A stretch of DNA of 61,292 bases from Akkermansiaceae bacterium (GTDB taxonomy: Bacteria; Verrucomicrobiota; Verrucomicrobiia; Verrucomicrobiales; Akkermansiaceae), in assembly GCA_903888515.1 (NCBI GenBank), contig CAISTY010000174.1, positions 1 through 61,292 on the forward strand, written 5' to 3'. The notes under the pieces were generated by a model that ran no database searches, was not told the DNA's origin, and saw only the letters and a list, made by a program, of their open reading frames with translations. This document shows, piece after piece, positions 7,412 to 50,479 of the stretch. Within the stretch, counting starts at the first letter, position 1. Every line of letters starts with the position of its first letter. The translations under genes and the position numbers were made by a program.

Positions 7412-7452
7412 AACGTTGATAACCAATGATCGGATTGTTGTGCAATGGATTG

Positions 7453-7495
7453 CTTCCTGACCACCAAACGCCACTCGTGCTTCAAAATCAGGAAG
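7453..7495 (+). terminator. Inverted repeat after the GH106 gene
   Basis: CTTCCTGA (7453-7460) pairs with TCAGGAAG (7488-7495) around a 27-base loop. There is no clear T-run, so termination is only a possibility. It lies directly before the duplicated regulatory region. Confidence 0.3.
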
Positions 7496-7497
7496 TG

Positions 7498-7633
7498 ATT
7501 GTGAAATCACATGTTTTTTTGGCAAACGGGTTTTTCTTCCGTTTGGCGTGATAGAAAACGCGGTTGAGTCAGTATTGTGAGCGATGTGAACACTTCCCCG
7601 GGAAGTCATCAGCCATGAGATCCTACCCTGCCA
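7498..7633 (+). promoter_or_regulatory. Duplicated upstream region, copy 2
   Basis: This is the second copy of the element at 3063-3197. It again opens with the dyad TGTGA-AA-TCACA (7500-7511) and ends at the conserved ACCCTGCCA. In this copy an ATG at 7615 replaces ATC of copy 1 and opens a short reading frame. The two copies imply common control of the GH106 and protease transcription units. Confidence 0.7.
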
Positions 7634-7731
7634 CCCTCTGTTGTCCGGGCGCGTTGCTCGCCATCGCGGTTTCCCCCATGCATGCCGCCGAAGGACTTAC
7701 GGAAACAGCGCACCTGAAAACCAACCGATGA
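7615..7731 (+). CDS. Small open frame resembling an orphan signal peptide
   Basis: The frame encodes 38 residues: MRSYPATLCC, then a hydrophobic stretch and PMHAAEG, which looks like a signal peptide with an Ala-x-Ala type cleavage site. Its TGA overlaps the ATG of the protease gene (ATGA at 7728-7731), so it could act as a coupled leader. It could equally be the remnant of a secreted protein whose mature part was lost when the region was duplicated. Nothing shows that it is translated. Confidence 0.35.
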   Translation: MRSYPATLCCPGALLAIAVSPMHAAEGLTETAHLKTNR

Positions 7732-11057: not shown

Positions 11058-11118
11058 ACCTGAAATGTCGCAATACAAGAAATAGCACAAGAAAACAAAC
11101 ACTGGAAACCAACACACC

Positions 11119-13053: not shown

Positions 13054-13162
13054 GTCACCTGACATCTCCCGCAACGGCTGGAAAACGCCATGCCAATTGA
13101 CTTCCCTATCAGAACCGAATCCTGCTTGAATCAACAATTCCAACCCACATGATGATACACCT

Positions 13163-14581: not shown

Positions 14582-14596
14582 TTTCCATACCCCGCC

Positions 14597-30500: not shown

Positions 30501-31486
30501 CGCGCCGCGATATTGTCGGCAGGGTTGGGATTGGCCGAAGGCGTCCAGATCGAGCGGAAGTGCTTGGACTCGCGCGTCTCGCGATCCGTCGGATGGCGGG
30601 TCGGATCCCCCTGCACCATATCGTCGAGGGCGTTGGCATTGATGTTATAGAATAGATAGGTCCCGAGCATCACTCCGCCGGCGAAATTGTGCGCGATGTC
30701 GGCAGGGGTCATCGCCTCGGTGTGGATGCGCACCGCCGCGATCGAACCGGTGAACGATTTCGCCCCGAGGTTGATGATGGCGCTCGTCGCAAACGACAGC
30801 GCTCCGGCCTGCGGCGCGCCGACCTGCACGTTGTCCTTGTAGAAAGTGATTTGCCCGCCGCTGGAAACCGCGACCAGATGCTGCCACGCCGTGCTGCCCG
30901 CCATGCCGAACTGGGCCGCCGTGAGGTCCTTGTTGGGCGTACCCTCGAAGCGCACCAGCACCTCGCCGGCCTCGACGCTCGGATTGCGCACCCACAATTC
31001 CACGCTCAGGACCCCATCGGCGATGGCGGCCGGCAGCAGGGTGTTGCCCTCGGTGATCATGCGCAGCTTGTCGCCCCCGTCAAATGTGAGCGCCGGCGAT
31101 CCGCCGAGGTCCGCCACGAAAAGAGGATACTCGGTGGCCGGTCCGTCGAAACCGTAGCGCCCGAACGACCACTTGAAGGTCCCGCAGTTGTTCCAGTTCT
31201 TCACGACCAGGCCGGCGTCGCGCGTGACCATGAATTCGGCGTGGTTATCAATCGCCAACCGCCCGCCGCTTGCACCTTGGCCGACGTAAAGCAGACGCGC
31301 ATCGGTCTGCTCGGCACCGGCATACATCGGGCTCGGCGCGGGAACCACCCCGGCGAACGCGCTAACAGGAAAGAGCAGGGCAAACAAGGGTGCAAGCAGG
31401 CTTGCGCAGGCCGGGCGACGGCGGCGATGAGAATGCGGGTGACGTGTGGCGGATGGCGAAGGCAGCGGATTGCGGGACATTTTCAT
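24524..31486 (-). CDS. Giant secreted HExxH protease with LamG, beta-helix and autotransporter-type repeats (paralog 3)
   Basis: The protein has about 2320 residues if it starts at ATG 31486 (31510 and 31480 are alternatives). An arginine-rich n-region and signal peptide lead to a LamG-like domain (about 60-270). A zincin domain follows with HELQH at 404-408 and, 17 residues later, WWESHANYG as possible Glu ligand. Next are hexapeptide beta-helix repeats (about 696-812), a second LamG (about 885-1035), an FnIII-like domain (about 1045-1132), and a carbohydrate-binding-like domain starting ISMEAENHDL (about 1147-1292). A long beta-helical region with autotransporter-associated repeats (GAGKLTLTGSNTYTGPTAV) follows. 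The end has an acidic DKDPDKDGQNNLLEF loop and FLRVKV. No outer-membrane barrel is visible. It is divergent from the gene at 31865. Confidence 0.8.
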   Translation of the reverse strand: MKMSRNPLPSPSATRHPHSHRRRRPACASLLAPLFALLFPVSAFAGVVPAPSPMYAGAEQTDARLLYVGQGASGGRLAIDNHAEFMVTRDAGLVVKNWNNCGTFKWSFGRYGFDGPATEYPLFVADLGGSPALTFDGGDKLRMITEGNTLLPAAIADGVLSVELWVRNPSVEAGEVLVRFEGTPNKDLTAAQFGMAGSTAWQHLVAVSSGGQITFYKDNVQVGAPQAGALSFATSAIINLGAKSFTGSIAAVRIHTEAMTPADIAHNFAGGVMLGTYLFYNINANALDDMVQGDPTRHPTDRETRESKHFRSIWTPSANPNPADNIAARVESIQMPQGETAYDWMAHKLAFHMPIVSDNEPLRGDGRKYKIHHGNKWTGGDFMGYAGDTGFGWGFTYTGWFNDHELQHGVDAHQMGSITGHWWESHANYGPSYGGNPHVNPVDVCPQHSHVYPSTGGNYYHAYLIWDHLEEVPEYGTFYSTRLWSSVPGGSVYPPKGMRDMDLNPATPFDDEWVRMAARNVTWDYPRHPEYKTRYNSLQYNERTHLILLQKVPYLPAGWYEPPKWRAPQQHGYNMCPLVVTPGTVTADLTGFIDPVHGSDWRAMFVAVQSNGSPRYGNIFTKAAQGSFQVLAGDLELYLVVSATPTTIMDIGIFANDPLTDYRCPAQDRFPYQVKLGGTTPKASIWQKPTPTSDGAHANGGGFVAGTARVDASVYVGPQARVLDHARVFGSARIEGSAVVSGYAIIESGAIVRDQARVTDFTHIRGNAIIEGSARVMEHAWINNGIRISEYAVCKGNSYISGPVHGTGIIDGNYIKSNDVDKGYWFVWSWGSGQHVGELDQEFNQLYLEYKFENQHAYRVWDTYGATWGHLVNGPAYVNDNGGSALSLDGIDDFVDLHQSVALKDSFTIEIDVKWSGGSNSQRLLNFSNSATGNAAWLSPSDSQGKLAFSITIGGATQVVRAANPLPSGTWHKVQVMGFADTVKLLVDGSEWASNSAFSHDLEDVQANECYIGRGPAGNAFAGRIDNFVVWSKALVETQPPTPNPAGFVILPTQLDGNTVMMQATPGSDGNLPIEYYFEETTGHAGGSDSGWQTSPLFYDRSLVPNTLYTYVVRMRDALGNTTTNSAPANITTPTVHPPNFTQATDGTISMEAENHDLKVTGTLYNNNWFFVNDIVGYSGTGGMRVADAGRQISSQYAPTASPRLDFNVKFDRAGAHTLFVRGHGANYNADSCHAGLDMQELPELQYITTFTQTGYSWHASQTFYVPSVGVHKINIWMREDDATIDKVVITPGSTLPTDTGPAESPRGGGDPVISPFPTGTYWSGGGGDVLWSNPANWNDAPPATGDILPFLTNGAGGAVLNNNIAGGSFASMQFESDAPAFTLNGNSVTLTGDPGGNVALNNSTNTQTINLPITLTGATNLNAATGTIVIGSACTIANGGFNLTVKGAQPVTLNGAFSGSGGVIRSTDPGKLNINGVTALGTGRFTISGGTIDNTSAGAVTLSTVTPQTWAGDFTFAGTRDLNLGTGAVTMNTNTQVTVSAKTLTVGGPITGAVTLTKAGSTTGALVVSSVGSSFGGLTVSQGTLRLDNSVAAAPTMTVTGTTLSNDASVLDINNATLTTAGINIQGGQVIARGTSVINNTGGVRITGSADSCSHAYYFNDTATINGGTGNLETHWTQAAQSYYILMQNSAQATFANVIFGPNAEYADSTGHNTVLEVRDAAQLTTPGNMYVMQRINDQNRSNAGGARVHVQVYQHGGTVTVGGNLRLCDNDPVKGAATIRHEVDGAYNLWSGSLLKVGGIITGGATRTGVGQSYFNFHGGTLTYTGAGPQTDWINLTASAVTDGIDSTQNLRIWEGATINTGAQNVTVAQALLAPTGSGVSAIDTTGLTGTMYNNGCPPWVFITRDTASGDTTGSGASAVATINSSGYITGFVITNPGNNYTVKPLITLIRGDLGTPGTVPAANIALTANSYTGGLTKKGAGKLTLTGSNTYTGPTAVDVGTLALSGSNGSIQNTSRISIAAGATFDVSAKTSPYILSTSTALSASGAASPATLKGATSGTINLGAQPLMLTWGGESSGTDSTHPSLTVSQAALVLANKTFTVVTGTPLNAGVYTLVSAPAGISGTVNATPSYTGGSGVAGGVTGVISISSDNKSVILTVTANPTPFEAWIGNPAFGLATGDRGADKDPDKDGQNNLLEFATNGHPSNGTASGKVRSRIETLGSEQAMVLTLPVRGTAPAPVFSGAPPTATVDGVVYTIGGSNNLATFDQVVTEVTPASAAGMPALDPGWSYRTFRLSGPVPARGVRGFLRVKVEPYP

Positions 31487-31864
31487 GGCAGGGACATCGG
31501 TCGGGGTCATGGGCACCCGCAGGAAACCTCGTCCATCGCGCGCATCCTGCCATGAAAAAATCGCCCCGGCATGAAAAAATCGCCCCGGCCTTTTCCGCCA
31601 GGCTGATACCAGCGGGATCGGAAGATTCGGCAAGGCAAATACCAACCCATGGTCAGGCATGGAAAATCCGTTGTCCGCGGTTTTTTTAAAAAACTCCTTG
31701 ATGAATCGGGGCTGGAAGCTATTTTCGCGGGGTAGGACTTTTCTCATGAATCCGGCTCCAACCACGTGTCCCGTGGCCAAATCCGCCGGAAAACACCGCT
31801 TGAATCGCATCCTTTCCAGTAGTTTCAGATCTATCACAACCACCACCCTAACACCCACCACACG
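31487..31864. other. Divergent intergenic region
   Basis: This 378-bp gap separates the giant protease (minus) from the isomerase-like gene (plus). It holds the tandem 19-bp repeat at 31551-31588, a T-run at 31680-31687, and an A/C-rich, almost G-free leader before ATG 31865. No convincing gene or exact promoter pair was identified. Confidence 0.5.
31551..31588. repeat. Two perfect tandem 19-bp repeats
   Basis: CATGAAAAAATCGCCCCGG occurs twice without a gap or mismatch, 65 bp upstream of the giant protease start. Its location between divergent genes makes it a possible operator. It could also be a chance duplication. Confidence 0.8.
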
Positions 31865-32689
31865 ATGATCAAAATCGGCATTGCCAGTGATAACTTCCGC
31901 CACGACGACCGGTCCCTGCCCTACTTCTTCAAGTGGTGCCAGAAGAACCAATCGCCCATCGTCGAATTGAACACCCTCAACGGGGACGACTTCTTCGAGG
32001 GCCTGGGCTTCTCTCCCGCCGCCTCGCTACAGTCGGACCCGCTCGCCCTGCGCCACGAACTCGAATCCTTCGGACTGATGGTCAGCCAGTTGGACTGTCA
32101 TTACGCGCTGCATCGGTGGCAGTCCATTCCCTACCTGATCAACGGCATCAAATTCGCCCACGCCTTGGGCTGTCCCGCCATTGCCACCACCGACGGTGCC
32201 GAAGTGCCGCGCGGCATGACGCTGCAGCAGGTTTATGAACGCGCCGCTTATCACATCGGCGAGGCTTTGCCGGTGGCCCGCACCCACGGCATCCAGATCA
32301 ACGTCGAGCCGCACGGCCCGTTGACTAACAACCTGGAACTGATGGTGAAACTGATGAAGCACTTCGACGACCCGCTGGTGGGCGTGAATTTCGACACGGC
32401 CAACACCTTCATCGCCGGCAACGACCCGGTCAAGATGACCGAAGCGCTGCTGCCTTGGATCCACCATTTTCATGTGAAGGACGTGGCGCCGGAACTCCGG
32501 GCCAACATCGGCAAGGACACCGGCATCGCCGCGAGCGACGTCCACGTCGGCCAGGGAATCAACGCCGACAACATCCGGAACATCGTCGCCCTCTTGAAAA
32601 AGCACAATTGGGATGGCGTGATGAGTCTGGAGTCCAAGGGCGAAATGAACACCCTCAAGAGCCTGGAATGGTTCCGCACCATTCTCTAA
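31865..32689 (+). CDS. Sugar phosphate isomerase/epimerase-like TIM-barrel protein
   Basis: The 274-residue cytoplasmic protein fits the AP-endonuclease-2 / xylose isomerase-like barrel family. Visible features are the metal-site segments INVEPHG, GVNFDTANTFIAGND and HHFHVKD, and a conserved VGQGINAD stretch. Family members isomerise or epimerise free or phosphorylated sugars. In these phyla they often accompany Gfo/Idh/MocA proteins, as one does here some 17 kb away. Only 10 bp separate it from the next gene, so they may be co-transcribed. Confidence 0.85.
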   Translation: MIKIGIASDNFRHDDRSLPYFFKWCQKNQSPIVELNTLNGDDFFEGLGFSPAASLQSDPLALRHELESFGLMVSQLDCHYALHRWQSIPYLINGIKFAHALGCPAIATTDGAEVPRGMTLQQVYERAAYHIGEALPVARTHGIQINVEPHGPLTNNLELMVKLMKHFDDPLVGVNFDTANTFIAGNDPVKMTEALLPWIHHFHVKDVAPELRANIGKDTGIAASDVHVGQGINADNIRNIVALLKKHNWDGVMSLESKGEMNTLKSLEWFRTIL

Positions 32690-36101: not shown

Positions 36102-36800
36102 ATGGCAAATATTTTTCCACGTTGGACCAATCAACTGCCTCTGAAAATCGCGATCTGCGCCGGGTCCGCAGTGGTGGGCGTGGCGCTCGCCTTCAATTAT
36201 TATGCGACGCCGAAAGCTTTGGCGGCGGGCTATCAACCGGCGCAGCCGATTCCGTTTTCGCACAAGATCCATGTGGATCAGATCGGCTTGGATTGCCGGT
36301 ATTGCCACTCGTTCGTCGAGGTGTCCGGCCATGCGAACGTGCCGCCGGGAAATACCTGTTGGAATTGCCACCAGCACGTCCAGCGGGAAAGCCCTAAACT
36401 CGCGCCGCTGCACCAGGCGATGGATCCGGCCTATCCGGGGTATGACGGCAAGCCGATCGAGTGGGTGCGCATCCACAAGGCGCCCGATTATGTCTATTTC
36501 AACCACTCGGCGCACTTGAGCCGGGGGGTTGGCTGCCGGAGTTGCCACGGCAATGTGCATGCCATGGAAGTCGTTTCCCAGGACCAGCCGCTCTCGATGA
36601 GTTGGTGCCTGGACTGCCACCGCGCCCCGGAAAATTTCCTCCGTCCGCTCGAGGAGGTTTGCAATTCCGGGCATGACGCGCAGACATATCTAACAAACAA
36701 CCCGCAGCTTGGCGTGACAACTCCCCGGGAACTCGGTCTCATGCTCAAGGAGCGCTTCAAGGTGAAACCGAAGATCACCTGCACCACCTGCCACCGCTGA
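36102..36800 (+). CDS. actA: Alternative complex III pentaheme cytochrome c, ActA
   Basis: The 232-residue protein has one N-terminal membrane anchor and five CxxCH heme sites (CRYCH, CWNCH, CRSCH, CLDCH, CTTCH), the number expected for ActA. It is the periplasmic electron-transfer subunit of quinol:cytochrome c oxidoreductase ACIII. It heads the order actABCDEF found in many bacteria that lack the cytochrome bc1 complex. ActB follows after 45 bp. Confidence 0.95.
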   Translation: MANIFPRWTNQLPLKIAICAGSAVVGVALAFNYYATPKALAAGYQPAQPIPFSHKIHVDQIGLDCRYCHSFVEVSGHANVPPGNTCWNCHQHVQRESPKLAPLHQAMDPAYPGYDGKPIEWVRIHKAPDYVYFNHSAHLSRGVGCRSCHGNVHAMEVVSQDQPLSMSWCLDCHRAPENFLRPLEEVCNSGHDAQTYLTNNPQLGVTTPRELGLMLKERFKVKPKITCTTCHR

Positions 36801-36845
36801 CATATCCAACATGCACTCGATTTCCACCCTTTCCTGAAGCCGCAC

Positions 36846-39800
36846 ATGAGCAAACGCAATTGGCAACACCCCGCAGTTCCCGCCAACGAAACCACCGTCG
36901 TTTGGCGCGGTGCGGGCCCACTTGCCGACATCCCGGCCATGCACGAGTGGTGGGCGCGCGAGTTTCCGCAAGCGGCCACCGCAATGTCCGATGCGGGCGA
37001 CGCGGAAACCACCCGCCGGTCGTTTCTCAAACTGATGGGCGCGTCTGCCGCACTGGCTGGATTCGGCATGGCCGCGTGCCGCCGCCCGGAAAGTCATATC
37101 GTCCCCTATACCAAGGCACCCGAGTGGGGGATTCCCGGCAAGGCGACCTACTATGCATCTGCCATGCCGCGAGCGCATGGCGCGACGCCGTTGGTGGTGA
37201 CTACCTTCGAAGGCCGCCCCACGATGCTCGCCCCCAACCGCCTCCATCCGGATGCCAGCGGCACGGATGCCTTCGCCCAAGCCTCGGTGCTCGATCTTTA
37301 CTCCCCATCGCGATCCCGCGAAATCCTCAACTCGGGCAAACCGGCCACACGCACCGATCTCATGGCCGCCATCAGCGCGATCGCAAGCAATCCATCCGCC
37401 AAAATCGGCTTCCTCTTCGCGGCCGACGATAGCCCGACCCGTGCCCGACTGACCAAGGAACTCGCCGCCAAGTACCAGTCCTCTAAATTCTATCAATATG
37501 AAGCGCTCACCGGCGAGTCCCCGAAGGCCCTCGGCGCGGGCGTGAAATGCCTCGCGGATTTTTCCAAGGCCGAGCGGATTCTATCACTGGATTGCGATTT
37601 TGTGGGAACCGACCCGCAGGGACCTGTCACACCGTTTTTCTCGGGTCGCAAGCCGGAGGGAAATGGTTACGACACCAAGGCAGACGCATCGAAGTTGAAC
37701 CGTCTTTATGTCGTCGAGGCCGCCTTCTCGCTTACCGGCGGCATGGCCGATCACCGCTTGCGCGTCGCACCGGGCCAAGTTCTGTTAGTCGCCGGCCAGA
37801 TCGCCCGCGAACTGGGAATTTTCCATGCGAAAGGCGTCAACGAGGTCACCGATGCCAGCCAGCTCGCGTGGATCAAGGCGCTGGCAGCGGATCTCAAGGC
37901 CCATGCGGGGAAAGCCGCGGTCCTAACAGGTTCGCGCCAACCCGCCGCAGTGCATCACCTCGCGCTGGCCATCAATCTGGCGCTTGACAACCTCGGCGCG
38001 GGAAAACCGTTAGCCGCCATGCAGACCGATACCCGCGACCTCGGCTCGCTGGCCGCACTCAAGGCCGGCATCGAATCCGGCGCGGTGGAAACACTCGTGC
38101 TGCTCACCCCGTCCAACCCGGTTTATGATGCGCCGTCGGACCTCAAGTTCGCGGATTCGTTAGCCAAACTGAAAACCAGCATTCATCTCGGCGAGCGCAC
38201 CGATGCCACGGCCCATGCCGCCACCTGGCACATTCCCGCCGCCCATTACCTCGAATCGTGGTCGGACACCCGCAGCGCGCGCGGCACCCACACCGCGGTC
38301 CAACCGATGATTCTGCCGCTCTATCAGGACTGCGTGTCCGAATTGGAACTGCTCCTCGCGCTGCTATCCGATACCGGCAAACTCTTGAATGGCGAAGGTG
38401 AGCAAGGCGCCCCGTCGCCCGCCTACCATGCCGTCCGCACCACCTTCGCCGGTCTCGGCGGGGAAAGTGAGACCGCCTGGAAAAAATTCCTGCGCGACGG
38501 ATTTCTAGCGGATACCGCGTATCCGCTCATCACTCCGGAGATTGCGGAATCCGCCGCTGCCGACATCGCGGACGCGAACATCGTAACGGTCAAAGCCGGA
38601 GTGCCCACCAAGGATGCGCTGCAAGTGCTTTTCGCCACCGACGCCTCGGTCTTTGACGGACGCTGGATCGACAACGCTTGGCTACAGGAAGCACCCGATC
38701 CGATTTCCAAACTCACCTGGGACAACGCCGCATTGATCGCGCCAAAAACCGCCATGGAACTCGGGATTTACGACGAGATCATCGCCACCGCAAACGCCCG
38801 CGCGCTCGCATCTCCGGATGGCGAAGGACCTAACCGAAAGTCACCCGTGATTCAAGTGATGGTCAACGGCCGGTCGCTGGAAATCCCGGTCCTCGTCGCC
38901 TTCGGCCAGGCCGAACACACCCTCGTGATTCCGTTAGGTTATGGTCAGGGATTTGACAAGGATGATGAATTCAAGCGCGGTCCATCGAACGAGTCGCACG
39001 TCGGTCTGGTCGGTGTCAACCGCGGCTTCAACGCCTATCCGCTGCGCACCGCCGCCACCGCCTATTTCGCCACCGGTGCCACCGTCCAGCTCACCGGCAA
39101 GCGCTACGCGGTCGCCCTTACCCAGGAGCATCACGCCATGTATGGCCGCGCCCTGGCGCGCGAGGTTTCCACCCTCGATGCGGATGACGGGAAAGGCGGA
39201 TTCGCCGCGCAACTCGCCAACGTCAGCAAACAGGGCAACGACGCCCACGCGCCGCCTAACATCTATCTATACGAGCCCAAAGGCTCCGCGTTGTGGCATC
39301 CCGGCCCTGATGGCAAGGCACAGGAGTTCCTCAGTGACCCGCTCCACCAGTGGGGCATGTCGATCGACCTCTCGGCGTGCATGGGATGCAACGCATGTCT
39401 GGTCGCCTGCCAGGCGGAAAACAACATCCCGGTCGTCGGCAAGGAACAAGTCGCCAGAGGCCGCGAAATGCATTGGATCCGCATGGACCGGTATTTCGCG
39501 ACGCAAGAGCGCTTCATCGATGAGGATGGCAAAGAAAAGCAAACTCCCGAATGGGTGCGCGATAACCCGGAACTCGTCCCACAACCGGTCGCCTGTATGC
39601 AATGTGAATCCGCGCCGTGCGAAACCGTGTGCCCGGTCAACGCCACGGTGCACACCGAGGACGGTCTCAACGCGATGGCCTACAACCGCTGCATCGGCAC
39701 CCGCTATTGTGCTAACAACTGCCCGTACAAGGCCCGCCGCTTCAATTTCTTCGATTATAACAAGCGCAACCCGCTCATCGCCCATAACCTCTATCGCGGT

Positions 39801-40256
39801 CCGCTGGGAGTCACAGCCGTCGGCGACCCGGATCACCTGCAAAAAAACCCCAACGTCACCGTCCGCATGCGCGGGGTGATGGAAAAATGCACCTATTGTG
39901 TGCAGCGTCTCACGGAGGCGGTCATCCGCCAAAAACGCGGCCCGCAACAACAGACGCTCGATGACGGCGTGCCATCCACCGGAATGACGGTTTCTAACAG
40001 CACGTTGCGCATTCCGCCGGACTCGGTGAGAACCGCCTGCCAGGACGCCTGCCCGGCCGCCGCCATCACCTTTGGAAACCTGCTGGACAAAGAACAATCC
40101 GTGCTTGGCCGCAGCCGCCACATGGATCGCGGTTATGACCTGCTTCACTATATCGGCACCCGCCCGCGCACCAGCTATCTGGCACGCGTCAAAAACCCGA
40201 ATCCGGCGATGCCCGACGCCAAGTTCGTCGGCAAGGCCACCATTCACATGGGCTGA
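36846..40256 (+). CDS. actB: Alternative complex III iron-sulfur subunit, ActB
   Basis: The 1136-residue protein fuses a molybdopterin-oxidoreductase-like domain without evident cofactor motif to a C-terminal ferredoxin-like domain. A Tat signal ([13 protein letters not shown]) lies unusually deep, near residue 57, as is normal for ActB. The iron-sulfur part shows [35 protein letters not shown] and CTYCV with a late CQDAC. It passes electrons from the quinol site to ActA. An imperfect inverted repeat follows before actC. Confidence 0.95.
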
Positions 40257-40390
40257 AGACGCAAGACTTCAAGACACAAGACTCAAGAAAGAAGAAGATA
40301 GATGAATTCCCCACAGAAGACGGACCTCGAGAAGCCAACGAATGGAGAAATCTTCCATCTTGGGTCTTCAAGTCTTGTCTCTTGCGTCTC
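40255..40390. repeat. Large imperfect inverted repeat between actB and actC
   Basis: AGACGCAAGA (40257-40266) is repeated as TCTTGCGTCT (40379-40388). Inside the arms CAAGACTTCAAGAC pairs imperfectly with GTCTTCAAGTCTTG. The arms also contain short direct repeats of a CAAGAC type. The transcript could form a long hairpin at a subunit boundary in the operon, possibly affecting RNA stability. Confidence 0.6.
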
Positions 40391-40429
40391 CTGCCGCTTT
40401 TTCTAACACTTTGCATTTTCGACCCGCGC

Positions 40430-41902
<1,473 letters not shown>

Positions 41903-41978
41903 ATCCTATATTCTATATTCCAAATTTCATATCTCAAATTTCAAATTTCGAATTTCAAATCCGCATCCCCTATCTTCC
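41903..41978 (+). repeat. AT-rich low-complexity spacer between actC and actD
   Basis: The spacer consists of degenerate repeats of a TTTCAAAT/ATTCCAAAT type and contains almost no G. It separates two genes of one operon and ends at the GTG start of actD. There is no Shine-Dalgarno. The likely effect is an unstructured leader. Confidence 0.6.
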
Positions 41979-42542
41979 GTGACTCCTGATCGCAAACGCA
42001 TTTACGGCTATCTGGCCGAGTTTGAGAGCGCCGCCGCCCTGTATCAGGCCGCGGCACGGGTCCGCGACGCCGGCTTCAAGCATTGGGACTGTTATTCGGC
42101 ATATCCGATCCACGGTCTTGACGGCGCGATGGGCATCAAACGTTCGATCCTGCCACGGCTTGTCTTTGTCGGTGGCCTGACCGGCTTTGTCACGGCATTT
42201 GTGCTCTCCTACGCGACGCAGGTGGTGATCTATCCGACCGTGGTGCAGGCGAAACCGGCGAATTTATTCACCATTCCGGCGTTTTTCCCCATCATGTTTG
42301 AGCTGACGGTATTGTTTGCGGGACTCACGGTGCTGTTCGGGTTGTTGGCACTGATCCGTCTGCCGCGACTCAACCACCCGCTCTTCGAAAGCCGCCAGTT
42401 CCAGCGTGTGACCGATGACGGGTTCTTCATCGCCATCGAAGCCCTGGATCCCAGCTTCGACACCCAGGAAACCCACACCCTGCTCGCCGAAATCGGCGGC
42501 GCCAATATCGAACTCGTCGAAGAAGAAGATGATGATGGATAG
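41979..42542 (+). CDS. actD: Alternative complex III subunit ActD (DUF3341)
   Basis: The 187-residue protein begins with GTG and shows the DUF3341 pattern: YGYLAEFESAAALYQAAARV, HWDCYSAYPIHGLD, then two transmembrane helices (about residues 58-80 and 98-122) and an acidic C-terminus. ActD is a structural membrane subunit of ACIII near the ActC/ActB interface. Position and length agree with the family. Confidence 0.92.
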   Translation: MTPDRKRIYGYLAEFESAAALYQAAARVRDAGFKHWDCYSAYPIHGLDGAMGIKRSILPRLVFVGGLTGFVTAFVLSYATQVVIYPTVVQAKPANLFTIPAFFPIMFELTVLFAGLTVLFGLLALIRLPRLNHPLFESRQFQRVTDDGFFIAIEALDPSFDTQETHTLLAEIGGANIELVEEEDDDG

Positions 42543-42546
42543 GGAA

Positions 42547-42604
42547 CATGCCGAAAATCCAGAATCCACAATCCACAATCCACAATCCGAATTCCCCACA
42601 TTAG
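42547..42604 (+). repeat. Low-complexity spacer between actD and actE
   Basis: The spacer is built from tandem AATCCAC units (AATCCACAATCCACAATCC at 42563-42588) and is nearly free of G until the last bases before ATG 42605. It resembles the other G-poor leaders in this window. Confidence 0.6.
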
Positions 42605-43261
42605 ATGCGCTATTTTTTCATTGTTTATGCGTTGCTTGCGCTGCTTGTCGTTGGCATCTTCGGACTGCCCGGGCAGAAGTTCGCCAAACTGCCTATCAGA
42701 ATCTTCCCTGACATGGACGAACAGGACAAGCTGCGCGCGCAGAAGCCGGATGCGTTTTTCGCGGACGGTCATGGCGGCCGGGGGTCCATCGCCGGGGTCC
42801 ATCCGCGCGGTTTCAACCCGGATGGCGCAAAGATGATTGGCGGAATCCCCGAGTATGAGTTTGGCGGCGGAACCGGTTATGATACAACCGGACGGATTGG
42901 CGACTACTATGGCAACGGCATGCCCGTGGAGTTGCAGCTATCTCCCGCGGGCGCCCGGGCATTGATCCGCCGCGGCAAAGAACGCTACGGCATCTATTGT
43001 GCGGCCTGCCACGGTGCTTACGGCGATGGCCAGGGGATCACCGCGGCCTACGGCGTGCCGGTAGCCAGCAACCCGAATGCGAAACTCAACTCCACCAGGC
43101 AGGATATTTATCCGGACGGGCGCATGTTCCATACCATCACCCACGGCATGGGCAGGATGAGTGCTTATGGCTATCAGATTCCGGTGCGCGACCGCTGGGC
43201 CATCATCGCCTATGTCCGCACGCTCCAGGCCGCCAAACAATCCGCGGATCAAGCCCGTTAA
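42605..43261 (+). CDS. actE: Alternative complex III monoheme cytochrome c, ActE
   Basis: The 218-residue protein has an N-terminal membrane anchor and a single CAACH heme site near residue 135. GRMFHTITHGMGRMSAYG further on carries candidate axial methionines. ActE is the cytochrome c subunit from which ACIII delivers electrons to a soluble carrier or directly to an oxidase. It lies 21 bp before actF. Confidence 0.93.
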   Translation: MRYFFIVYALLALLVVGIFGLPGQKFAKLPIRIFPDMDEQDKLRAQKPDAFFADGHGGRGSIAGVHPRGFNPDGAKMIGGIPEYEFGGGTGYDTTGRIGDYYGNGMPVELQLSPAGARALIRRGKERYGIYCAACHGAYGDGQGITAAYGVPVASNPNAKLNSTRQDIYPDGRMFHTITHGMGRMSAYGYQIPVRDRWAIIAYVRTLQAAKQSADQAR

Positions 43262-43282
43262 TCCTATTTTCATCCCACCGCA

Positions 43283-44593
43283 ATGGCCCGCCACCACGTT
43301 ACTTCCGCAGACCTTGCCATCCACGGCGATCACCTGGATTCCACGGGGGTTTCCACGGTGAAAAGCATCGCCATGGGCGTGGCCCTTGTCGGGACCGTGG
43401 CCAGCCTGTATTTGTTATTTTTCGCGCCGGAGATGATTCGCGGATGTTTTGCCTACTCCTGGTTGTTCGCGTTTTATTATTTCCTGTCGCTCTCGATCGG
43501 CGGTTGTTTCTGGACCTTGCTCCACAACGTCACGAATGCGGGCTGGGGGACGTCCGTGCGCCGGACCTTCGAAAACCTCGGATCCACCTATCCGTGGATA
43601 TACCTGTTCGCCCTCCCGCTGCTGTGCCCGGAAGTGCAACAATATCTGTATGAATGGATGAATATCCAACGCGCCGCCACCGGCCGTGTGGAGGAATTCC
43701 TGCAGTCCCATAGCAGCCTGCTCTATCACAAATATGGTTTCCTGAATTTGCCGTTTTGGTATGGCAGGGTGATCTTCTGGGGACTGGCGCTGAGCCTCGT
43801 CATCATCGGCCTGCGCAAACTATCGGTCGCCCAGGATACCGATCCGCATCCCGGAACGGCCCGTTTGTTCCAAGCGCGTTTCCACTCGACTTACACGTTG
43901 ATTCTGTTCGCACTGACGGTCACCTTTACCGGTTTTGATTTTCTGCTGGGGCTGGATTACAAGTGGTTTTCCACGATGTGGGGTGTCTATCTGTTTGGTG
44001 GTTCGGCGCTCAACGCGATGGCGGTGATCATTCTGACATGCGCCTGGTTGCAGAGTCGGGGGCATCTCAAACACGTCACCTCGGACGAACATTTCCATAT
44101 CATGGGCAAGCTGTTGCTGGCCTTCACCATTTTCTGGGCCTACATCGCGTTCTCGCAGTATTTCCTCATCTGGTATGCGGGCATCACCGAGGAAACCTCG
44201 TATTTCCTGATCCGCAACACCGGCCACTGGAATACCGCGATGATCGTGCTGGTCTTCGGCCACTTCGCCGTGCCCTTTGTTTTCCTGCTTCAGGCATGGC
44301 TCAAGCGCAACCCGAGATCACTCTCGATCCTGGCGGGTTACACGCTGTGCATGCATGTCTTTGACCACTATCTGATCACCATTCCCGAACGCGGCATCTC
44401 GCTGGGGAACATCAAGCCGGATGTCTTCGGTGGAATTCAAGTCTCCATCCCCGGCGCGTTCTGGGGTGACATCCTGGCCTTCGTCACCATCGGTGCGGCC
44501 TTCCTGTTTTTTCTTCTGCGTGCGCTCGGCCAGCACTCGCTCTATCCAAACCGCGACCCGCGCATCCTCGAATCCGCCAATTTGTCCAACTGA
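43283..44593 (+). CDS. actF: Alternative complex III membrane subunit, ActF
   Basis: The 436-residue protein has about ten transmembrane helices and is related to ActC. Typical segments are SLSIGGCFWTLLHNVTNAGW, FDFLLGLDYKWFSTMWGVY and HDLGKL-like HIMGKLLLAFTIFWAYIAF. It forms the second NrfD-like half of the ACIII membrane core. It ends 13 bp before the next gene. Confidence 0.93.
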   Translation: MARHHVTSADLAIHGDHLDSTGVSTVKSIAMGVALVGTVASLYLLFFAPEMIRGCFAYSWLFAFYYFLSLSIGGCFWTLLHNVTNAGWGTSVRRTFENLGSTYPWIYLFALPLLCPEVQQYLYEWMNIQRAATGRVEEFLQSHSSLLYHKYGFLNLPFWYGRVIFWGLALSLVIIGLRKLSVAQDTDPHPGTARLFQARFHSTYTLILFALTVTFTGFDFLLGLDYKWFSTMWGVYLFGGSALNAMAVIILTCAWLQSRGHLKHVTSDEHFHIMGKLLLAFTIFWAYIAFSQYFLIWYAGITEETSYFLIRNTGHWNTAMIVLVFGHFAVPFVFLLQAWLKRNPRSLSILAGYTLCMHVFDHYLITIPERGISLGNIKPDVFGGIQVSIPGAFWGDILAFVTIGAAFLFFLLRALGQHSLYPNRDPRILESANLSN

Positions 44594-44606
44594 AAAACCG
44601 CCGTCC

Positions 44607-45020
44607 ATGGACCCCGCCCGCGACACCCCGATCATCCGTTCCACCATCTACTTGCGGGGCATCGGCATTTTCCTGATGTTCGCACTGTTGCTGGCGGTCA
44701 TCTGGTTGTTCACGCACAAGGCTCCGGAATCCCTTGAGGACGTGGTGGCCAGGACCCGTTACGCCACCAAGGCGAAACTCGAAGAGACCCAGGCCGCCAG
44801 TCTCTCGCAACAGGCGATCGACGCGGCCATTCCCGCAGTCGCGGAACAACTCGCTGCTGCCAAACCTGCCGCTGTCGAAAAACCGGAACAGGTCATTCCC
44901 GGATCCCCGACCGCCGCGAAGATCGCTCCGAAGCCTGTGAGTACGCCTGCGCCGATAGATTCCAAGGTCAAGGACGCGGACAAGCCGCCGGTGCCCGCGC
45001 CAAATCCGCCCCAGCCTTGA
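44607..45020 (+). CDS. Single-helix membrane protein with Ala/Pro/Lys-rich tail
   Basis: The 137-residue protein has one transmembrane helix (residues about 15-34, GIFLMFALLLAVIWLFTH) and a long low-complexity tail rich in Ala, Pro and Lys. I do not recognise its family. It sits between actF and the CcoN-like gene with 13- and 29-bp gaps. That suggests a role in assembly or docking of the respiratory complex. Confidence 0.75.
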   Translation: MDPARDTPIIRSTIYLRGIGIFLMFALLLAVIWLFTHKAPESLEDVVARTRYATKAKLEETQAASLSQQAIDAAIPAVAEQLAAAKPAAVEKPEQVIPGSPTAAKIAPKPVSTPAPIDSKVKDADKPPVPAPNPPQP

Positions 45021-45049
45021 TGGATTGAATTACCTATTTCAAAGAGCCG

Positions 45050-46516
45050 ATGTCATCCACCCTATCATCTTCCACGGATCAAGACGCGCTGTTGCAGGCG
45101 GCAATTGACCGGTCGTTGCGCTATCCGGTGATGTTTTTCCTCACCAGTGGTGCCGCGTGGCTTGCGGTTGCGCTATGTCTCGGAGTGATCGCCTCCGCCA
45201 AAGTCCATAACCCGGAATTCCTCGGGAACTGGGCGTGCCTCACCTATGGCCGGGTTTATCCCGCCCATATCAATGCCTTGGTTTATGGCTGGGGAATGCA
45301 GGCCGCCTTCGCGGTGATTCTTTGGCTGATGGCCCGGCATTCCGGCAGGCAATGCCCGGACGCCGTCATGATTCTAACCGCAGGGCACGTATGGAACCTT
45401 GGGGTTGCGCTTGGGTTTGCGGGAATCCTTTCGGGCAACGGCACCGGAATGCCATGGATGGAGTTTCCGCCGTATGTATGGCCGGTACTGCTCGGCAGTT
45501 ACTGCGTCATCGTCATGGGGGCGTTCAACCAGTTCCGCGTCCATCCGCAGGGACGTGTTGCCATCCCGCAATGGTATATCTTCGCCGCGATGCTCTGGTT
45601 TCCATGGATTTATACCACCTCGAACCTGCTGCTGCATTGCCTGCCGGGTCATCCGGTAATGGCCGCCGGCATCAACGCATGGTATAAGTCCGCACTGGTT
45701 TTCTTGTTTTTCACGCCTGTGGGTTTGGGTGCCGCTTATGATCTCGCCGGGCAGGTGACCGGCCGTCCGGTGTCGGGTGATGCGCTCGTCAAACTCGGTT
45801 TCTGGTCGCTGGCGGTGATCGCGCCGTGGGCGGGCATGCAAAAACTCGCGGGTGCGCCGGTGCCGTATTTTCTGCCGTATGTCGGGGCGGCGGCGGCGGC
45901 GTTGTTATTCATACCGATTTGTGCTGCCGTGCTCAACACGGCGCGCATGATGCGGCCATGGCGCAAGACGCTCGTCGCGAATCCCACACTGCAATTCATC
46001 ACCGCCGGGATCGCCAGTCTGATGGTGATCGCAGTCACCTCGGTTGTGCTCTATCTGCCGGAATCCACATTGCCTCTGACGCAATTCTCGTTGTCAGGAT
46101 ATGGTTTTGATATCCTCGCACTTTACGGGTTTTTCAGCCTCGTGATGTTCGGTGCCATTTACGTGATCGTGCCCCGTATGGCAGGCCGCGCGTGGATCTC
46201 CAACAAGCTGGTCAAGGTCCACTTTCTGTTCTCGGTTTACGGCATGATCACGATCTGTTGGGCCGCGCTCATTGGCGGATTCCAACAGGGGATGGGACAG
46301 GAAAACTGGAAATTACCATGGATAGGTGTGGCATCAGCCACGAATCCTTATGCCGTGACCATCACGTTCGCCTGGTGTTTGATGCTTTTCTCCAACGTGT
46401 TTTTCTTCCTTCATCTCATCCTGATGTGGCGACTCCCGGCCCGTCCCGGCGCCCGTCACGCCTTAGATGAACCCGCCCCTGCCATGCCAGGCCACATCGC
46501 CGAAGATATCTATTGA
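45050..46516 (+). CDS. CcoN-like heme-copper oxidase homolog without copper, heme b3 and one heme b ligand
   Basis: The 488-residue protein aligns with the cbb3 oxidase catalytic subunit CcoN. GRVYPAHINALVYGWG keeps one low-spin heme ligand, His73. In the copper-site helix, the expected WYGHNAV is AWYKSAL (Lys213). The expected GPHHLHY is APWAGMQK (258-265). The helix with GHVHAGALGW reads SGYGFDILALYGF, placing Phe353 and Ile355 where heme b3 and heme b ligands should be. Three copper ligands and two heme ligands are therefore gone while the fold is kept. It cannot reduce oxygen in the usual way. The alignment was made by eye against CcoN from memory. It lies between ACIII and a CcoO gene. 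Confidence 0.85.
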   Translation: MSSTLSSSTDQDALLQAAIDRSLRYPVMFFLTSGAAWLAVALCLGVIASAKVHNPEFLGNWACLTYGRVYPAHINALVYGWGMQAAFAVILWLMARHSGRQCPDAVMILTAGHVWNLGVALGFAGILSGNGTGMPWMEFPPYVWPVLLGSYCVIVMGAFNQFRVHPQGRVAIPQWYIFAAMLWFPWIYTTSNLLLHCLPGHPVMAAGINAWYKSALVFLFFTPVGLGAAYDLAGQVTGRPVSGDALVKLGFWSLAVIAPWAGMQKLAGAPVPYFLPYVGAAAAALLFIPICAAVLNTARMMRPWRKTLVANPTLQFITAGIASLMVIAVTSVVLYLPESTLPLTQFSLSGYGFDILALYGFFSLVMFGAIYVIVPRMAGRAWISNKLVKVHFLFSVYGMITICWAALIGGFQQGMGQENWKLPWIGVASATNPYAVTITFAWCLMLFSNVFFFLHLILMWRLPARPGARHALDEPAPAMPGHIAEDIY

Positions 46517-46540
46517 ATTTCCAATCCACGATTTTTTTCC

Positions 46541-47248
46541 ATGAGCCTCCGAACCTTCATTCTTGGTCTCTCCGCCAGCTTCGGCGTGGCATGGCTGGCG
46601 ATCATCGTGATGCCTTACTTCATGATGCGCAATCTCGCTCCCATCACGCTTTCTCCATCAAAAGATGGAAGTGCCGGCGTGTTTTTCCCGAAACGCACCG
46701 GCCGCATCGCCGATGGTGCCAGCGTGTATGCCGCCAACGGTTGCTACCTCTGCCATTCCCAAGTGATCCGTCCGACCTACGCCGGCCATGACCTCTATCG
46801 TCCCGATTGGGGCGGACTCAAGGACGATGCCGAGCGCGGTGATACCCGCCGCGAGACCAACGCCTATGACTTCGGCGGCGAATCGTTCGCCCAACTCGGC
46901 GTGATGCGCATCGGGCCGGATCTTTCCAACCTTGGCCGGCGGGTGGATGCGCTTCATGCCGCCGGCAAGGATCCCGCCGCCTGGTTGTACGCGCATCTTT
47001 TCAACCCGCGCGACAATCCGCAATTGTGGCAATCCACCTGCCCTCCCCATCGATTCCTGTTTGATAGACGTGAAATCAAGGGCCGCCCGTTTGATGGCGC
47101 GCTGAAGGTCGATGCGGGTGCTAATCATGAGTGGGTGCCCAAAGCCGATGCGAAGGCCCTGGTGTCCTACCTGCTGTCATTGAAAAAAGACCACAAGCCA
47201 CCGGCCGCACTCGATTTTTCACCGCCAAAACCCAAGGACGCCGACTGA
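46541..47248 (+). CDS. ccoO: cbb3-type monoheme cytochrome c subunit, CcoO
   Basis: The 235-residue protein has an N-terminal anchor, then GASVYAANGCYLCHSQVIRP with the heme site at 68-72, GPDLSNLGRR and AHLFNPRDNP. These fit CcoO. Where CcoO normally has SKMPSYPWL with the axial methionine, this protein has STCPPHRFL (Cys167), so the sixth heme ligand may differ. It follows the CcoN-like gene by 24 bp and probably forms one membrane complex with it. Confidence 0.88.
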   Translation: MSLRTFILGLSASFGVAWLAIIVMPYFMMRNLAPITLSPSKDGSAGVFFPKRTGRIADGASVYAANGCYLCHSQVIRPTYAGHDLYRPDWGGLKDDAERGDTRRETNAYDFGGESFAQLGVMRIGPDLSNLGRRVDALHAAGKDPAAWLYAHLFNPRDNPQLWQSTCPPHRFLFDRREIKGRPFDGALKVDAGANHEWVPKADAKALVSYLLSLKKDHKPPAALDFSPPKPKDAD

Positions 47249-47276
47249 TTCCGCGTACCTCCACTTGCTATCCAAC

Positions 47277-48070
47277 ATGTCTTCGCCTAACAAGATGCCG
47301 TATTTCAAGGACGTCTGCCACATCTCCGGGGCTCAGCGACGCGTGAGTGCGGCGGCTCCGGCCGGCGCCGTTGACGGACACGCCGGATCTAACGGAACAG
47401 CGCCGGTTTCGCTCGGTGTTCTAACGGTCTTTGGGGTGGTGGTGCTCATCGCCGGCGGCATCCTCGGCGGCGCCGGCAGGTTTTTTGATTATCGCACGAT
47501 GTTCCGCGAGGGCTACGAACGCACCCCGGCCCCGGGTGACGCGGATGCGCCCCCCCCCCCAAGGTGGCCCTCGCGAGCTATATGGCGAAAGGTGCGAAAA
47601 TCTATGCCGGGAAATGCATCGTTTGCCATGGACCTGAAGCCAAGGGCGATGGGATCAATTTCCCCGCGCTCGCCGGTTCCACATGGGCGACCGGTGAAAC
47701 CCAGCGCTTTGCCATGATCATCCTCAACGGCCTGCAAGGACCTAACAGTGATGGGAAAACCTATGCTGCGGGCATGCCATCCCAGGCTGCTGGCCTCACC
47801 CCCGAGGATATCGCCGGGGTGATGACATATGTGAGAAACAGCTTCGGCAACAACACCGGCGATATTGTCACCGTTGCCATGGCCAAGACCGCCCTCGAAA
47901 TTTCCGCCGCCCGCGCCAAGGCCGGCCAACAGGTCACCGCCGCAGAACTCACCGCCGACCACCTCAAAACGCTCCCCGGCCCCCCACTCGACCCGAAAGC
48001 ACTGGTCAATCCCATCACCCTGACACCGGCGCGTACGCCTGCTTCCGCTCCCGCCGCACCCAAGCCGTGA
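47277..48070 (+). pseudogene. Membrane-anchored cytochrome c (CcoP-like), interrupted by a frameshift in a C-run
   Basis: The N-terminal part (transmembrane helix SLGVLTVFGVVVLIAGG) reads in one frame up to the run of 11 C at 47550-47560. The cytochrome c domain (SYMAKGAKIYAGKCIVCHG, then AAGMPSQ with the axial Met) follows in another frame to 48070. Nine or twelve C would join them. The second half is well preserved, so this may be a recent mutation, a phase-variable gene or a sequencing error. It would supply the third subunit of the CcoNO-like module. ATG 47295 is an alternative start. Confidence 0.8.
47550..47560 (+). repeat. 11-base C homopolymer in the cytochrome gene
   Basis: Eleven consecutive C residues form the point where the reading frame of the CcoP-like cytochrome shifts. 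Runs of this length are prone to slipped-strand errors both in cells and in sequencing. Confidence 0.9.
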
Positions 48071-48301: not shown

Positions 48302-48424
48302 GGCGGGCTCTCACATGTTGCCTGATTCCATTCTTGAAGTCCGCAAGACTGCGAGCAGAAGTTGAAACCACGAAAGATCAGGCGATTGACAAACATTGCC
48401 ATATTCACCAGTTTGAGGAAACTC

Positions 48425-50479
48425 ATGCCGGACCTATCCGATTCCCCATCCGAGCGGCGTTTCGTCGATCTTGCTACCCGGCCGCTTGAGGACAATGCCG
48501 AATTGCTCGATGCCGCGCGGGACGATCTCACGCGTCGCATCGAAGCGAGTCCGAAGACGACGGAAGCGGTGCTGGAGAATGCCGCCGCGCGACTGGAGAG
48601 GGCGGACCGGAGTGGTTGGAGAATGCGGGTCATGCCCTTGCTGGGATCGGTCGCTTTGGTTTCGCTGGCAGGGGTTGTTGGGACGTCGGCCTATCGTTTC
48701 TGCCAGTTCCGGGGATTCATCCGCATGGTTTCGCCACTCTCCAGAGTAGAGGAAGCCCCGGCGCTCTATCGTCTCGCCAAGAAACTGCCGCCGGATGCGC
48801 GCTTGTTGTTGTTCGGCGATGAGACTGCGAGAAACGAAGCCGCGAGATGGAAACCACTGTGGGAAAGCGACCGATCCAATCCCGCCTATCTGCAAGCTTA
48901 CGCGGTAGGCTGCCTCTCTGCTGAAAAAGAAATTCCACTGGAGTTGCTCAAGCAGTCGGAGACCATCGATCCCGGCAACGCCTATCTCGCCATCTTGGCC
49001 GCGGGTGCTCTGGCAAATGAATCCGTGGAGAGGAAAAGCCGTCCATGGTCCGCCCGTAAAGGCCATGAGGCCCCGGAGTGGATCATCAAGGATCAGGCAC
49101 GCTTCGATCAAGCCTGCGCGGCACTCCGCAAAGCGGCGGAACTCCCGGTGTGCACAGATCACAACATCGCGCTGAATCAGCAAAGATTCAGCCACCTGCC
49201 GCCGGGACGCGATTTTATCGAACGCTTATCCGTCGCGGCATACACGGCGGGGTTAACTACGCAAAAAATCAAATTTCTCGATCTCGCAAAGCTGCTTGCC
49301 ACGAAGGTTTCGACCTTTGACGACACGGCAGACATCGCTGATTTCAGGGAATGCGTGCGGCTGTGGCGCTGGCTGGCGGAACGTTCAGCGGAGTCGAACT
49401 GGTCCCTGATCGACGGAATGATCACCAAGGCGATCATTCAGATACCATTGAAGAATTTCCGGGATGCGGCGGCCAGCCTCGGGCTTGAGGACGCCTCTCG
49501 GGATTTCCGCATGCTGGACGAACGGATCGAGGCAGAAAAGGAACAGCGCAAGGTGAGGGACAAGGCGCATGAGACTTTGATCATGACCGAAACCAAGAGT
49601 TCGATCATGGCGCATCTAACGGTGCCGGTGACGATGCGACAGTTCAATTCGCCACCCGTGCTCACCGAGGATGATTTCAAGCCGGGCCGCCTGGTGGATC
49701 ACGCGTTGTTTGGTCAGGCTCACGCCTCGGTCGCGGCCGTGTGCTTCGGTCTGCTGATGATGGGCGCGCTGTTGTCCCGCACGGTGGTGCCGTATCCCGC
49801 GCAAATCATCGGGCGACGTTTGGCGGATCTGGTCTCCCCGCGAACCCGGATGCTACTGTTCGTCATCGGCATTCTCGGGCCAGTCGGGATGTATTTCGCG
49901 TTGATTCAGATTCCCCATCTATCAGCCCGCGAATGGGGTATGAAAATCAGCGGTTTCCTCGCGCCCTCCGGCCAGCTTGCGGCGCTCACGCTGCTGATGA
50001 TCAACCTCACCATCGCGCTCGGCGCGAGGCTGACGCGCAAGCGCCTGCCGATGCTTGCTCCCGCCCGCCGTTCATGGCGGCGCTGCCTGCCATGGTTAGG
50101 CGTCGCATGCTCGGTGCTGGCGATGCTTGCCTGCGGCACCATCCATGGCGAGATGATCCAATTTGGCATCACTCTCGCCATTGTTGCCGCGTGCTGGCCG
50201 CTGGCTTTCTGGCTGCCGAGGATTTTCCGCAAACCCGCGGAACCCAACCTGCGCCGCGTCGTGCTGCATCAGGTGCTTGTTCCGGTATGGACCGGCGCGG
50301 TGATGGTTTCCTGCCTGCTCTTCGCCCTTCACTGTGCCGATGAAATCAAGTGGACTGGACGCGACCGGTTGCTGGCTCCGGATTCGGAAGTGCGCGGCAT
50401 GACCCACATCGAGGGCGAGGCCGCGAAGCAACTCATTACGGAAGTGCGGGAACTGCTGAAAACCCTGCCGCAATCCTGA
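48425..50479 (+). CDS. Large multi-pass membrane protein of unknown function
   Basis: The 684-residue protein starts at ATG 48425, preceded by GAGGAA at a good Shine-Dalgarno distance. The longer frame from 48362 reads through the VapC remnant region. One transmembrane helix lies near residues 70-95. A long extracytoplasmic or cytosolic helical region (about 100-430) may contain TPR-like repeats. Six helices follow in the C-terminal third (for example AVCFGLLMMGALL and LFVIGILGPVGMYFALI). I do not recognise the family and see no catalytic motif. Confidence 0.75.
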   Translation: MPDLSDSPSERRFVDLATRPLEDNAELLDAARDDLTRRIEASPKTTEAVLENAAARLERADRSGWRMRVMPLLGSVALVSLAGVVGTSAYRFCQFRGFIRMVSPLSRVEEAPALYRLAKKLPPDARLLLFGDETARNEAARWKPLWESDRSNPAYLQAYAVGCLSAEKEIPLELLKQSETIDPGNAYLAILAAGALANESVERKSRPWSARKGHEAPEWIIKDQARFDQACAALRKAAELPVCTDHNIALNQQRFSHLPPGRDFIERLSVAAYTAGLTTQKIKFLDLAKLLATKVSTFDDTADIADFRECVRLWRWLAERSAESNWSLIDGMITKAIIQIPLKNFRDAAASLGLEDASRDFRMLDERIEAEKEQRKVRDKAHETLIMTETKSSIMAHLTVPVTMRQFNSPPVLTEDDFKPGRLVDHALFGQAHASVAAVCFGLLMMGALLSRTVVPYPAQIIGRRLADLVSPRTRMLLFVIGILGPVGMYFALIQIPHLSAREWGMKISGFLAPSGQLAALTLLMINLTIALGARLTRKRLPMLAPARRSWRRCLPWLGVACSVLAMLACGTIHGEMIQFGITLAIVAACWPLAFWLPRIFRKPAEPNLRRVVLHQVLVPVWTGAVMVSCLLFALHCADEIKWTGRDRLLAPDSEVRGMTHIEGEAAKQLITEVRELLKTLPQS

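Follow-up and report, generated by a model that had tools for sequence, protein, structure and literature searches.

An alternative complex III operon of an Akkermansiaceae bacterium carries a cbb3-type CcoN subunit in which five of six metal ligands are replaced

We analysed a 61,292-nucleotide stretch of DNA from an Akkermansiaceae bacterium (the window; assembly GCA_903888515.1, contig CAISTY010000174.1, positions 1 to 61,292), which contains an operon for alternative complex III (ACIII) that ends in a module related to the cbb3 (C-type) oxidases. All of its genes lie on the + strand, and the intergenic spacing from actA to the terminal cytochrome gene is 13-173 bases. The ACIII set consists of a five-heme ActA (36102..36800; multiheme cytochrome c, Cytochrome_C7 PF14522, 3e-14; QrcA-like, five CxxCH motifs in the translation), a fused molybdopterin-oxidoreductase-like and iron-sulfur subunit ActB (36846..40256; Fer4 families, TAT signal, QrcC/QrcB-like), the NrfD-like membrane subunit ActC (40430..41902, start codon approximate; PF03916, 1.8e-23), ActD (41979..42542; PF11821, 1.3e-58, which Pfam names directly as ACIII ActD), the monoheme cytochrome c ActE (42605..43261; PF13442, 1.5e-12) and the second membrane subunit ActF (43283..44593), which was assigned by orthology and position. 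These genes are followed by orf137 (44607..45020), whose 137 codons encode a protein that by eye spans the membrane once, a CcoN-like heme-copper oxidase core (45050..46516; COX1 match, 2.1e-33), a CcoO-like monoheme cytochrome c (46541..47248; PF02433 (FixO), 1.3e-9; CxxCH at residues 68-72) and a membrane-anchored monoheme cytochrome c with a CcoP-like domain (47289..48070; PF00034, 1.4e-14 for the 3' part). Neither orf137 nor ActF matched a family in NCBIfam or Pfam. The family matches of ActA to ActE, the CcoO-like protein and the c-type cytochrome bear out the gene order and coordinates given in a preliminary description of this DNA. The module indeed lies behind actABCDEF, but ccoN does not follow directly, because orf137 intervenes.

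The CcoN-like protein was aligned with 3mk7, a cbb3 oxidase structure, by phmmer (E 1e-10), and residue numbers of 3mk7 were taken from this alignment. In 3mk7, we take H60 and H347 to be ligands of heme b, H345 of heme b3, and H207, H257 and H258 of CuB. The six corresponding positions of the window protein read H-S-Q-K-F-I, so that five of the six histidines are replaced and none is present at the CuB or heme b3 positions. The sole ligand that is kept is H73 (codon 45266..45268), the equivalent of H60. H207 is replaced by S214 (45689..45691), H257 and H258 by Q264 and K265 (45839..45844), and H345 and H347 by F353 and I355 (codons from F353 to I355, 46106..46114); these replacements were also seen in a second alignment. 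The retention of His73 and the replacement of the histidines at F353 and I355 had been reported in the preliminary description, as had the loss of the copper ligands, which is real, although the equivalent of H207 is S214 and not, as stated there, the neighbouring Lys213. In an alignment of the query with 120 homologues, H73 was conserved in 121 of 121 sequences, S214 and Q264 in 120 each, K265 in 119, F353 in 113 and I355 in 101. H53, H391 and H455 are invariant in the same 121 sequences, as is H73.

Structure prediction and fold comparison indicate that the protein keeps the membrane fold of CcoN, as had been proposed. Misalignment was considered as a source of the missing ligands and was ruled out: the residues assigned by phmmer against 3mk7 and by MAFFT agree, no histidine is restored at any of the five positions, and the fold comparison backs the frame. 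The score against TIGR00780, the ccoN equivalog, was 55.5 bits versus a cut-off of 583, but it decides little, since the complete homologue at locus L160 (253 bits) also falls under the cut-off. The source genome, which is 93% complete, yielded one further COX1-family match. It is an 826-codon gene for a fused CcoN-CcoO protein that has all six histidines, and genes resembling ccoQ and ccoP (by eye) adjoin it. We regard it as very unlikely that the window protein is a still-active oxidase or NO reductase with alternative ligands. The four invariant histidines could be cited in favour of such an enzyme; however, the CuB and heme b3 positions contain no histidine, H391 also occurs in the genuine fused cbb3 oxidase of the source genome, and homologues with six histidines exist in operons of the same type, in addition to the separate fused gene.

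The dN/dS ratios (NG86) of ccoN, 0.265 between the window and its near relative L003 and 0.029-0.134 in six further pairs, indicate that ccoN is evolving under purifying selection; those of ccoO were 0.064-0.198 and those of the act genes tested 0.007-0.340. A frameshift interrupts the terminal cytochrome gene at a tract of 11 C (47550-47560), and no other C or G run of the window is as long. This frameshift is likely a sequencing slip, possibly a variable tract. It is the one feature that would suggest a decaying pseudogene on its way to being lost, an explanation to which we assign almost no probability and which we rejected: ccoN is open and conserved with dN/dS well under 1, dead copies fill deep clades (see below), and the frameshift is absent from L003, where the cytochrome gene is in one frame.

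The terminal cytochrome had been called CcoP-like. It is a c-type cytochrome with a CcoP-like domain, but it has a single CxxCH in L003 and other relatives and is not di-heme as CcoP is, besides being frameshifted in the window. Its presumed axial Met is kept in 86 of 86 sequences of an order-level alignment. In the CcoO-like protein, CxxCH is present and Cys167 aligns to the axial Met of genuine CcoO. Compared with 3mk7 CcoNOP, the module differs in the five replaced ligands, in the change of the presumed CcoO axial Met to Cys, in its single-heme terminal cytochrome and in its position at the end of an ACIII operon. In most relatives, orf137 goes on to encode a cytochrome c domain, which the window copy does not have, and CxxCH was found in 49 of 62 orthologues. 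As a separate observation, CcoO of some ligand-less lineages (L192, L193, L196, L198, L263, L266 and L269) has an extra stretch past the heme motif, with a common pattern near 'GWG..' and 'DYL'.

A profile of the ligand-less CcoN matched 230 of the 286 genomes of the window's class. Typing covered 170 loci, taken from among the class matches listed plus relatives and including the window's own genome; low-scoring class matches were under-sampled. Two loci (L113 and L271) had no usable CcoN, and the remaining 168 CcoN sequences, four of which came from duplicate genomes, represent 164 genomes. We call a copy intact when all six ligand histidines are present and dead when there are fewer. CcoN was intact in 47 genomes and dead in 117, in which the number of histidines was five in 2 genomes, four in 0, three in 4, two in 13, one in 63 and none in 35. 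Histidine was kept at position 73 in 52 of the dead copies, at 214 in 15, at 264 in 6, at 265 in 17, at 353 in 3 and at 355 in 18. H73 was therefore rejected as a mark of heme b retained in all members, and its absence from 65 of the 117 dead copies makes a generally required heme b unlikely.

The gene order from act through ccoN and ccoO to the cytochrome is common to the compared loci as far as the DNA reaches. ActF is adjacent in 155 of the 164 genomes (43 of the 47 intact), and the combination of actF followed by a ligand-less CcoN was found for 112 of the 117 dead copies. Four of the other five dead copies lack upstream DNA and one has ActF 7.3 kb away; among the intact copies without adjacent ActF, it was not found in three and the DNA is lacking in one. 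ccoO follows ccoN in all 164, and CxxCH is present in every CcoO (158 by the alignment and six more in full reading frames). The next cytochrome has CxxCH in all 117 dead loci and in 44 of the 47 intact ones (two not found, one without the motif). Thus, what was lost is the metal site of CcoN, and the carriers of c-type heme were retained. Among 18 loci added later, nine belong to the class, and the eight that were typed (L299 was not) are all ligand-deficient. Outside the class, six CcoN sequences were typed from nine loci (L287-L289 were not typed) and all have six histidines; no act genes were found at the nine loci within the DNA covered.

The number of losses was estimated from a tree of ActC plus ActD that comprised 56 loci, 12 with an intact CcoN and 44 without, after L167 (complete CcoN, no act genes in the DNA covered), L114, and L183 (short ActC) had been dropped; six rows were labelled 'HSQKFI-like' from a separate alignment. 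The ligand state requires at least seven changes on this tree, six of them forced by starred branches, and only 1 of 500 shuffles gave a count as low as that observed. If the tree is rooted at its midpoint and the ancestor is taken to be intact, with ligands never regained, the count becomes nine losses. Because the return of six ligands is unlikely, we infer by parsimony that an intact cbb3 core linked to ACIII was ancestral and that its ligands were lost repeatedly. Dead copies populate deep clades, including 18 tree rows of the window's order. Intact and dead copies also occur within single families, namely f17 (L160-L162 intact; L163, L179 and L186 dead) and f31 (L171 intact; L189 dead), and the mix of sisters in f17 makes it a good place to study ligand loss. 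Partly emptied sites were found in L169 (HRHHHH) and L164 (HNQRYH). In L168 and L172, an intact CcoN and a downstream aa3 oxidase are encoded within one operon, an arrangement that plausibly represents a stage preceding ligand loss.

The replacements themselves bear on whether the emptied metal site of CcoN gained a new function, such as an ion channel or a quinone site, through buried polar residues. The near invariance of S214, Q264 and K265 in the window's group would fit this, as would the pairing of K/R at 265 with D/E at 354 in 45 of the 117 dead copies, a pair that may be buried and stand in for the metal site, and the purifying selection on ccoN. However, the replacements differ among separately dead lineages (HSQKFI, ADAHQT, SESHFV, AATLII and others), which fits relaxed constraint better than a single new function, and we consider repurposing of this kind improbable.

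An aa3-type coxA gene lies approximately 1.5-1.9 kb downstream of the ligand-less ccoN, on the same strand, in 44 of the 54 named close loci with enough downstream DNA. No aa3-type CoxA was found by the COX1-family search of the 93% complete source genome. Six sister genomes (G006, G018, G019, G026, G029 and G036) have a CcoN that matches the window (H-S-Q-K-F-I/M), and no coxA was found downstream of it in the 4.2-10.4 kb covered in five of them (the 1.7 kb of G029 is too short to judge). Their best PF00115 matches scored 324-365 bits, versus approximately 425-445 for most CoxA of relatives, and in these lineages orf137 is without the cytochrome c domain. Among loci L003-L069, 13 of which were skipped for a missing gene or DNA, the cytochrome domain of orf137 was accompanied by an adjacent coxA in 41, both were absent in nine and the two were discordant in four, in rows that are phylogenetically related and not a tally of independent events. 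This pattern suggests that the orf137 cytochrome serves aa3, and that CcoN, CcoO and the terminal cytochrome remain with ACIII.

The survey includes verrucomicrobial methanotrophs. The CcoN of L180 shows complete identity with a Methylacidimicrobium sp. AP8 protein, and that of L181 matches a Methylacidiphilum kamchatkense Kam1 protein at 94% identity and one of M. infernorum at 73%. In 14 methanotroph proteins, one of the six ligands (the H258 equivalent) is kept and the others are absent where covered; the ligand strings are ADAHQT-like or SESHFV, and P0131 is partial. The predicted fold of the L181 protein (pLDDT 81) had cbb3 CcoN chains as all seven of its best matches (TM 0.81-0.84). In the Kam1-like genome G106, the five COX1-family matches are two with aa3 scores, one ba3-type, NorB and the ligand-less CcoN (aa3, 1ar1, 3e-116 for the one of the two that was checked; ba3, 1ehk, 2e-126; NorB, 3o0r, 6e-89), and the 470-476-residue matches of G072 and G111 are NorB. 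No complete cbb3 CcoN was found among the COX1-family matches of G106, G072, G090, G111 and G117, some of which were checked individually and the remainder judged by score and length. The Kam1 paper regards the gene linked to ACIII as coding for a cbb3 oxidase of high affinity and ties it to low-oxygen growth (PMC6688271), and these methanotrophs are credited with a cbb3 oxidase in a review and in two later papers (PMC8498564, PMC10205796, PMC11102522). In L183 (G090), 7.3 kb lie between ActF and the ligand-less ccoN; in its position, this gap resembles the nos cluster that PMC11102522 reports for Methylacidiphilum caldifontis IT6, inside its ACIII genes.

The module is probably best explained as a decommissioned cbb3 module, with five of six CcoN ligands replaced, that is kept as a structural and cytochrome-wiring extension of ACIII. 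Because relatives hold a complete or an emptied version at the same place, it is likely kept as a docking and electron-wiring part and not for O2 reduction, and the linkage to ACIII together with the kept fold and cytochromes points to a platform belonging to ACIII. We infer the wiring role from sequence comparison. In the proposed scheme, ACIII would oxidise menaquinol, and electrons would leave it via ActA/ActE to c-type hemes docked on the CcoN/CcoO platform. In the window's group, the docked heme would probably be that of the terminal cytochrome, together with the orf137 cytochrome domain where present. The next acceptor would be a working oxidase, namely the neighbouring aa3 enzyme in most close relatives and, in the window lineage, in which no aa3 was found, presumably the fused cbb3 oxidase encoded elsewhere in the genome. 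In this scheme, CcoN would have no catalytic part and would probably bind no heme. The terminal cytochrome appears to be a better candidate for the electron path than the CcoO heme, because its Met is conserved and that of CcoO is often lost.

Several findings weigh against this explanation. The presumed axial Met of CcoO is present in 47 of 47 intact copies but in only 71 of 117 dead ones, the rest having Cys (39), His (3) or another residue or a gap (4), and the window's group carries nearly always Cys. His/Cys ligation would lower the redox potential of a heme and take it off the main path. The change from Met to Cys thus speaks against a main-path role of the CcoO heme in the window's group, and the kept CcoO heme motif may serve the folding of CcoO alone. 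The association of orf137 with coxA is weakened by the discordant loci L010, L058, L059 and L065. Among the loci with enough DNA, no more than 30 of 84 with a dead CcoN and 8 of 44 with an intact one yielded a neighbouring aa3-type coxA in a class-wide search with an aa3 coxA query, which other oxidase types could escape; therefore, the partner oxidase would vary by lineage. Additional COX1-family genes are equally frequent in intact (12 of 13) and dead (26 of 27) genomes, and no second COX1 match was found in the dead genome G097.

Some of these observations favour a pure scaffold, in which the sole role of CcoN and CcoO would be to stabilise ACIII or to keep it in contact with an oxidase, with the heme outside electron transfer. 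The CcoO Met is relaxed in dead lineages only, heme b is not generally needed given the distribution of H73, and some lineages that lost the orf137 cytochrome domain and aa3 together still keep CcoN and CcoO. In contrast, the CcoO heme motif was never lost, and the CxxCH of the neighbouring cytochrome in all dead copies and its conserved Met in the order would be unexpected. We consider a pure scaffold the less likely explanation, albeit one that deserves serious attention. The preliminary description had proposed a non-catalytic conduit or scaffold extending complex III. This kind of explanation is the best supported, given the missing ligands, the predicted fold, the act linkage and the heme motifs in 117 of 117 dead copies, although the Met-to-Cys change counts against placing the CcoO heme of the window's group on the main path. 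The other suggestion made there, a separate quinone-linked device, gained no support from the present analyses, none of which was aimed at it directly. To that proposal, the present comparison adds the complete relatives (47 of 164), the recurrence of ligand loss and the aa3 coxA in 44 of 54 close loci.

We found no paper describing a ligand-less CcoN beside ACIII in the open-access literature. In the parts of the sources available to us, the Flavobacterium johnsoniae ACIII-aa3 supercomplex likewise joins ACIII to a partner oxidase (PMC8552683, PMC8361435), which is seen here at the level of genes; no CcoN/CcoO module is described there, whereas the operon studied here has a ligand-less cbb3 core behind the act genes, with the aa3 genes following it in most close relatives. 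ActE is reported to be dispensable for electron transfer to aa3 in F. johnsoniae (PMC8552683), which leaves room for other cytochromes and would fit electron passage through those of the platform. The placement of ACIII beside a C-type oxidase is on record for Opitutaceae and also for verrucomicrobial methanotrophs (Refojo 2010, cited by PMC8498564). The operon arrangement is identical. It is counted there as a cbb3 oxidase; some families do have a complete CcoN (L160-L162 among others), but the methanotroph proteins examined have one of six ligands. The closest published parallel found in open-access text is the 'deranged' COX1-like protein of Acetobacter, for which a structural role has been proposed (PMC10715153). 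It is also a retained ligand-less COX1-family protein, but its partner is CtaB, whereas the present protein is a C-type relative with CcoO, is linked to ACIII and recurs across a class. Finally, the bc1-cbb3 supercomplexes (6xkw, 8smr; cytochrome cy in PMC8361435) also couple a quinol-oxidising complex to cbb3, here by gene linkage; they contain bc1 instead of ACIII, and their cbb3 is active.

Elsewhere in the window, two regions (3743-18274 and 24527-31951) contain carbohydrate-degradation genes (GH106 rhamnosidase, GH127) and encode three large proteins in which DUF6055 and Laminin_G_3 domains occur; one, 2475 residues long, has a passenger-associated repeat. A cyanophycin synthetase-like protein (PF18921, ATP-grasp and Mur ligase middle domain) is encoded at 19937-22120 on the - strand, and a 705-codon open frame without a Pfam match lies behind the operon (48362-50479).

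Taken together, our results make it somewhat better than an even chance that a class-wide ACIII-cbb3 oxidase was switched off approximately nine times, with the dead oxidase kept as a structural and wiring subunit of ACIII, and that the methanotrophs are without a working cbb3 oxidase and reduce O2 via aa3 and ba3 enzymes. This would be a case of a respiratory enzyme that is repeatedly retained, in the same operon, although the residues on which its chemistry depends are gone, and it makes the need of ACIII for its partner oxidase directly testable. The sources label these proteins 'cbb3-type cytochrome c oxidase subunit I'; for 117 of the 164 typed genomes, in which the ACIII-linked copy is dead, it would be a mistake to infer oxygen affinity from ccoN being present unless there is another cbb3 gene.

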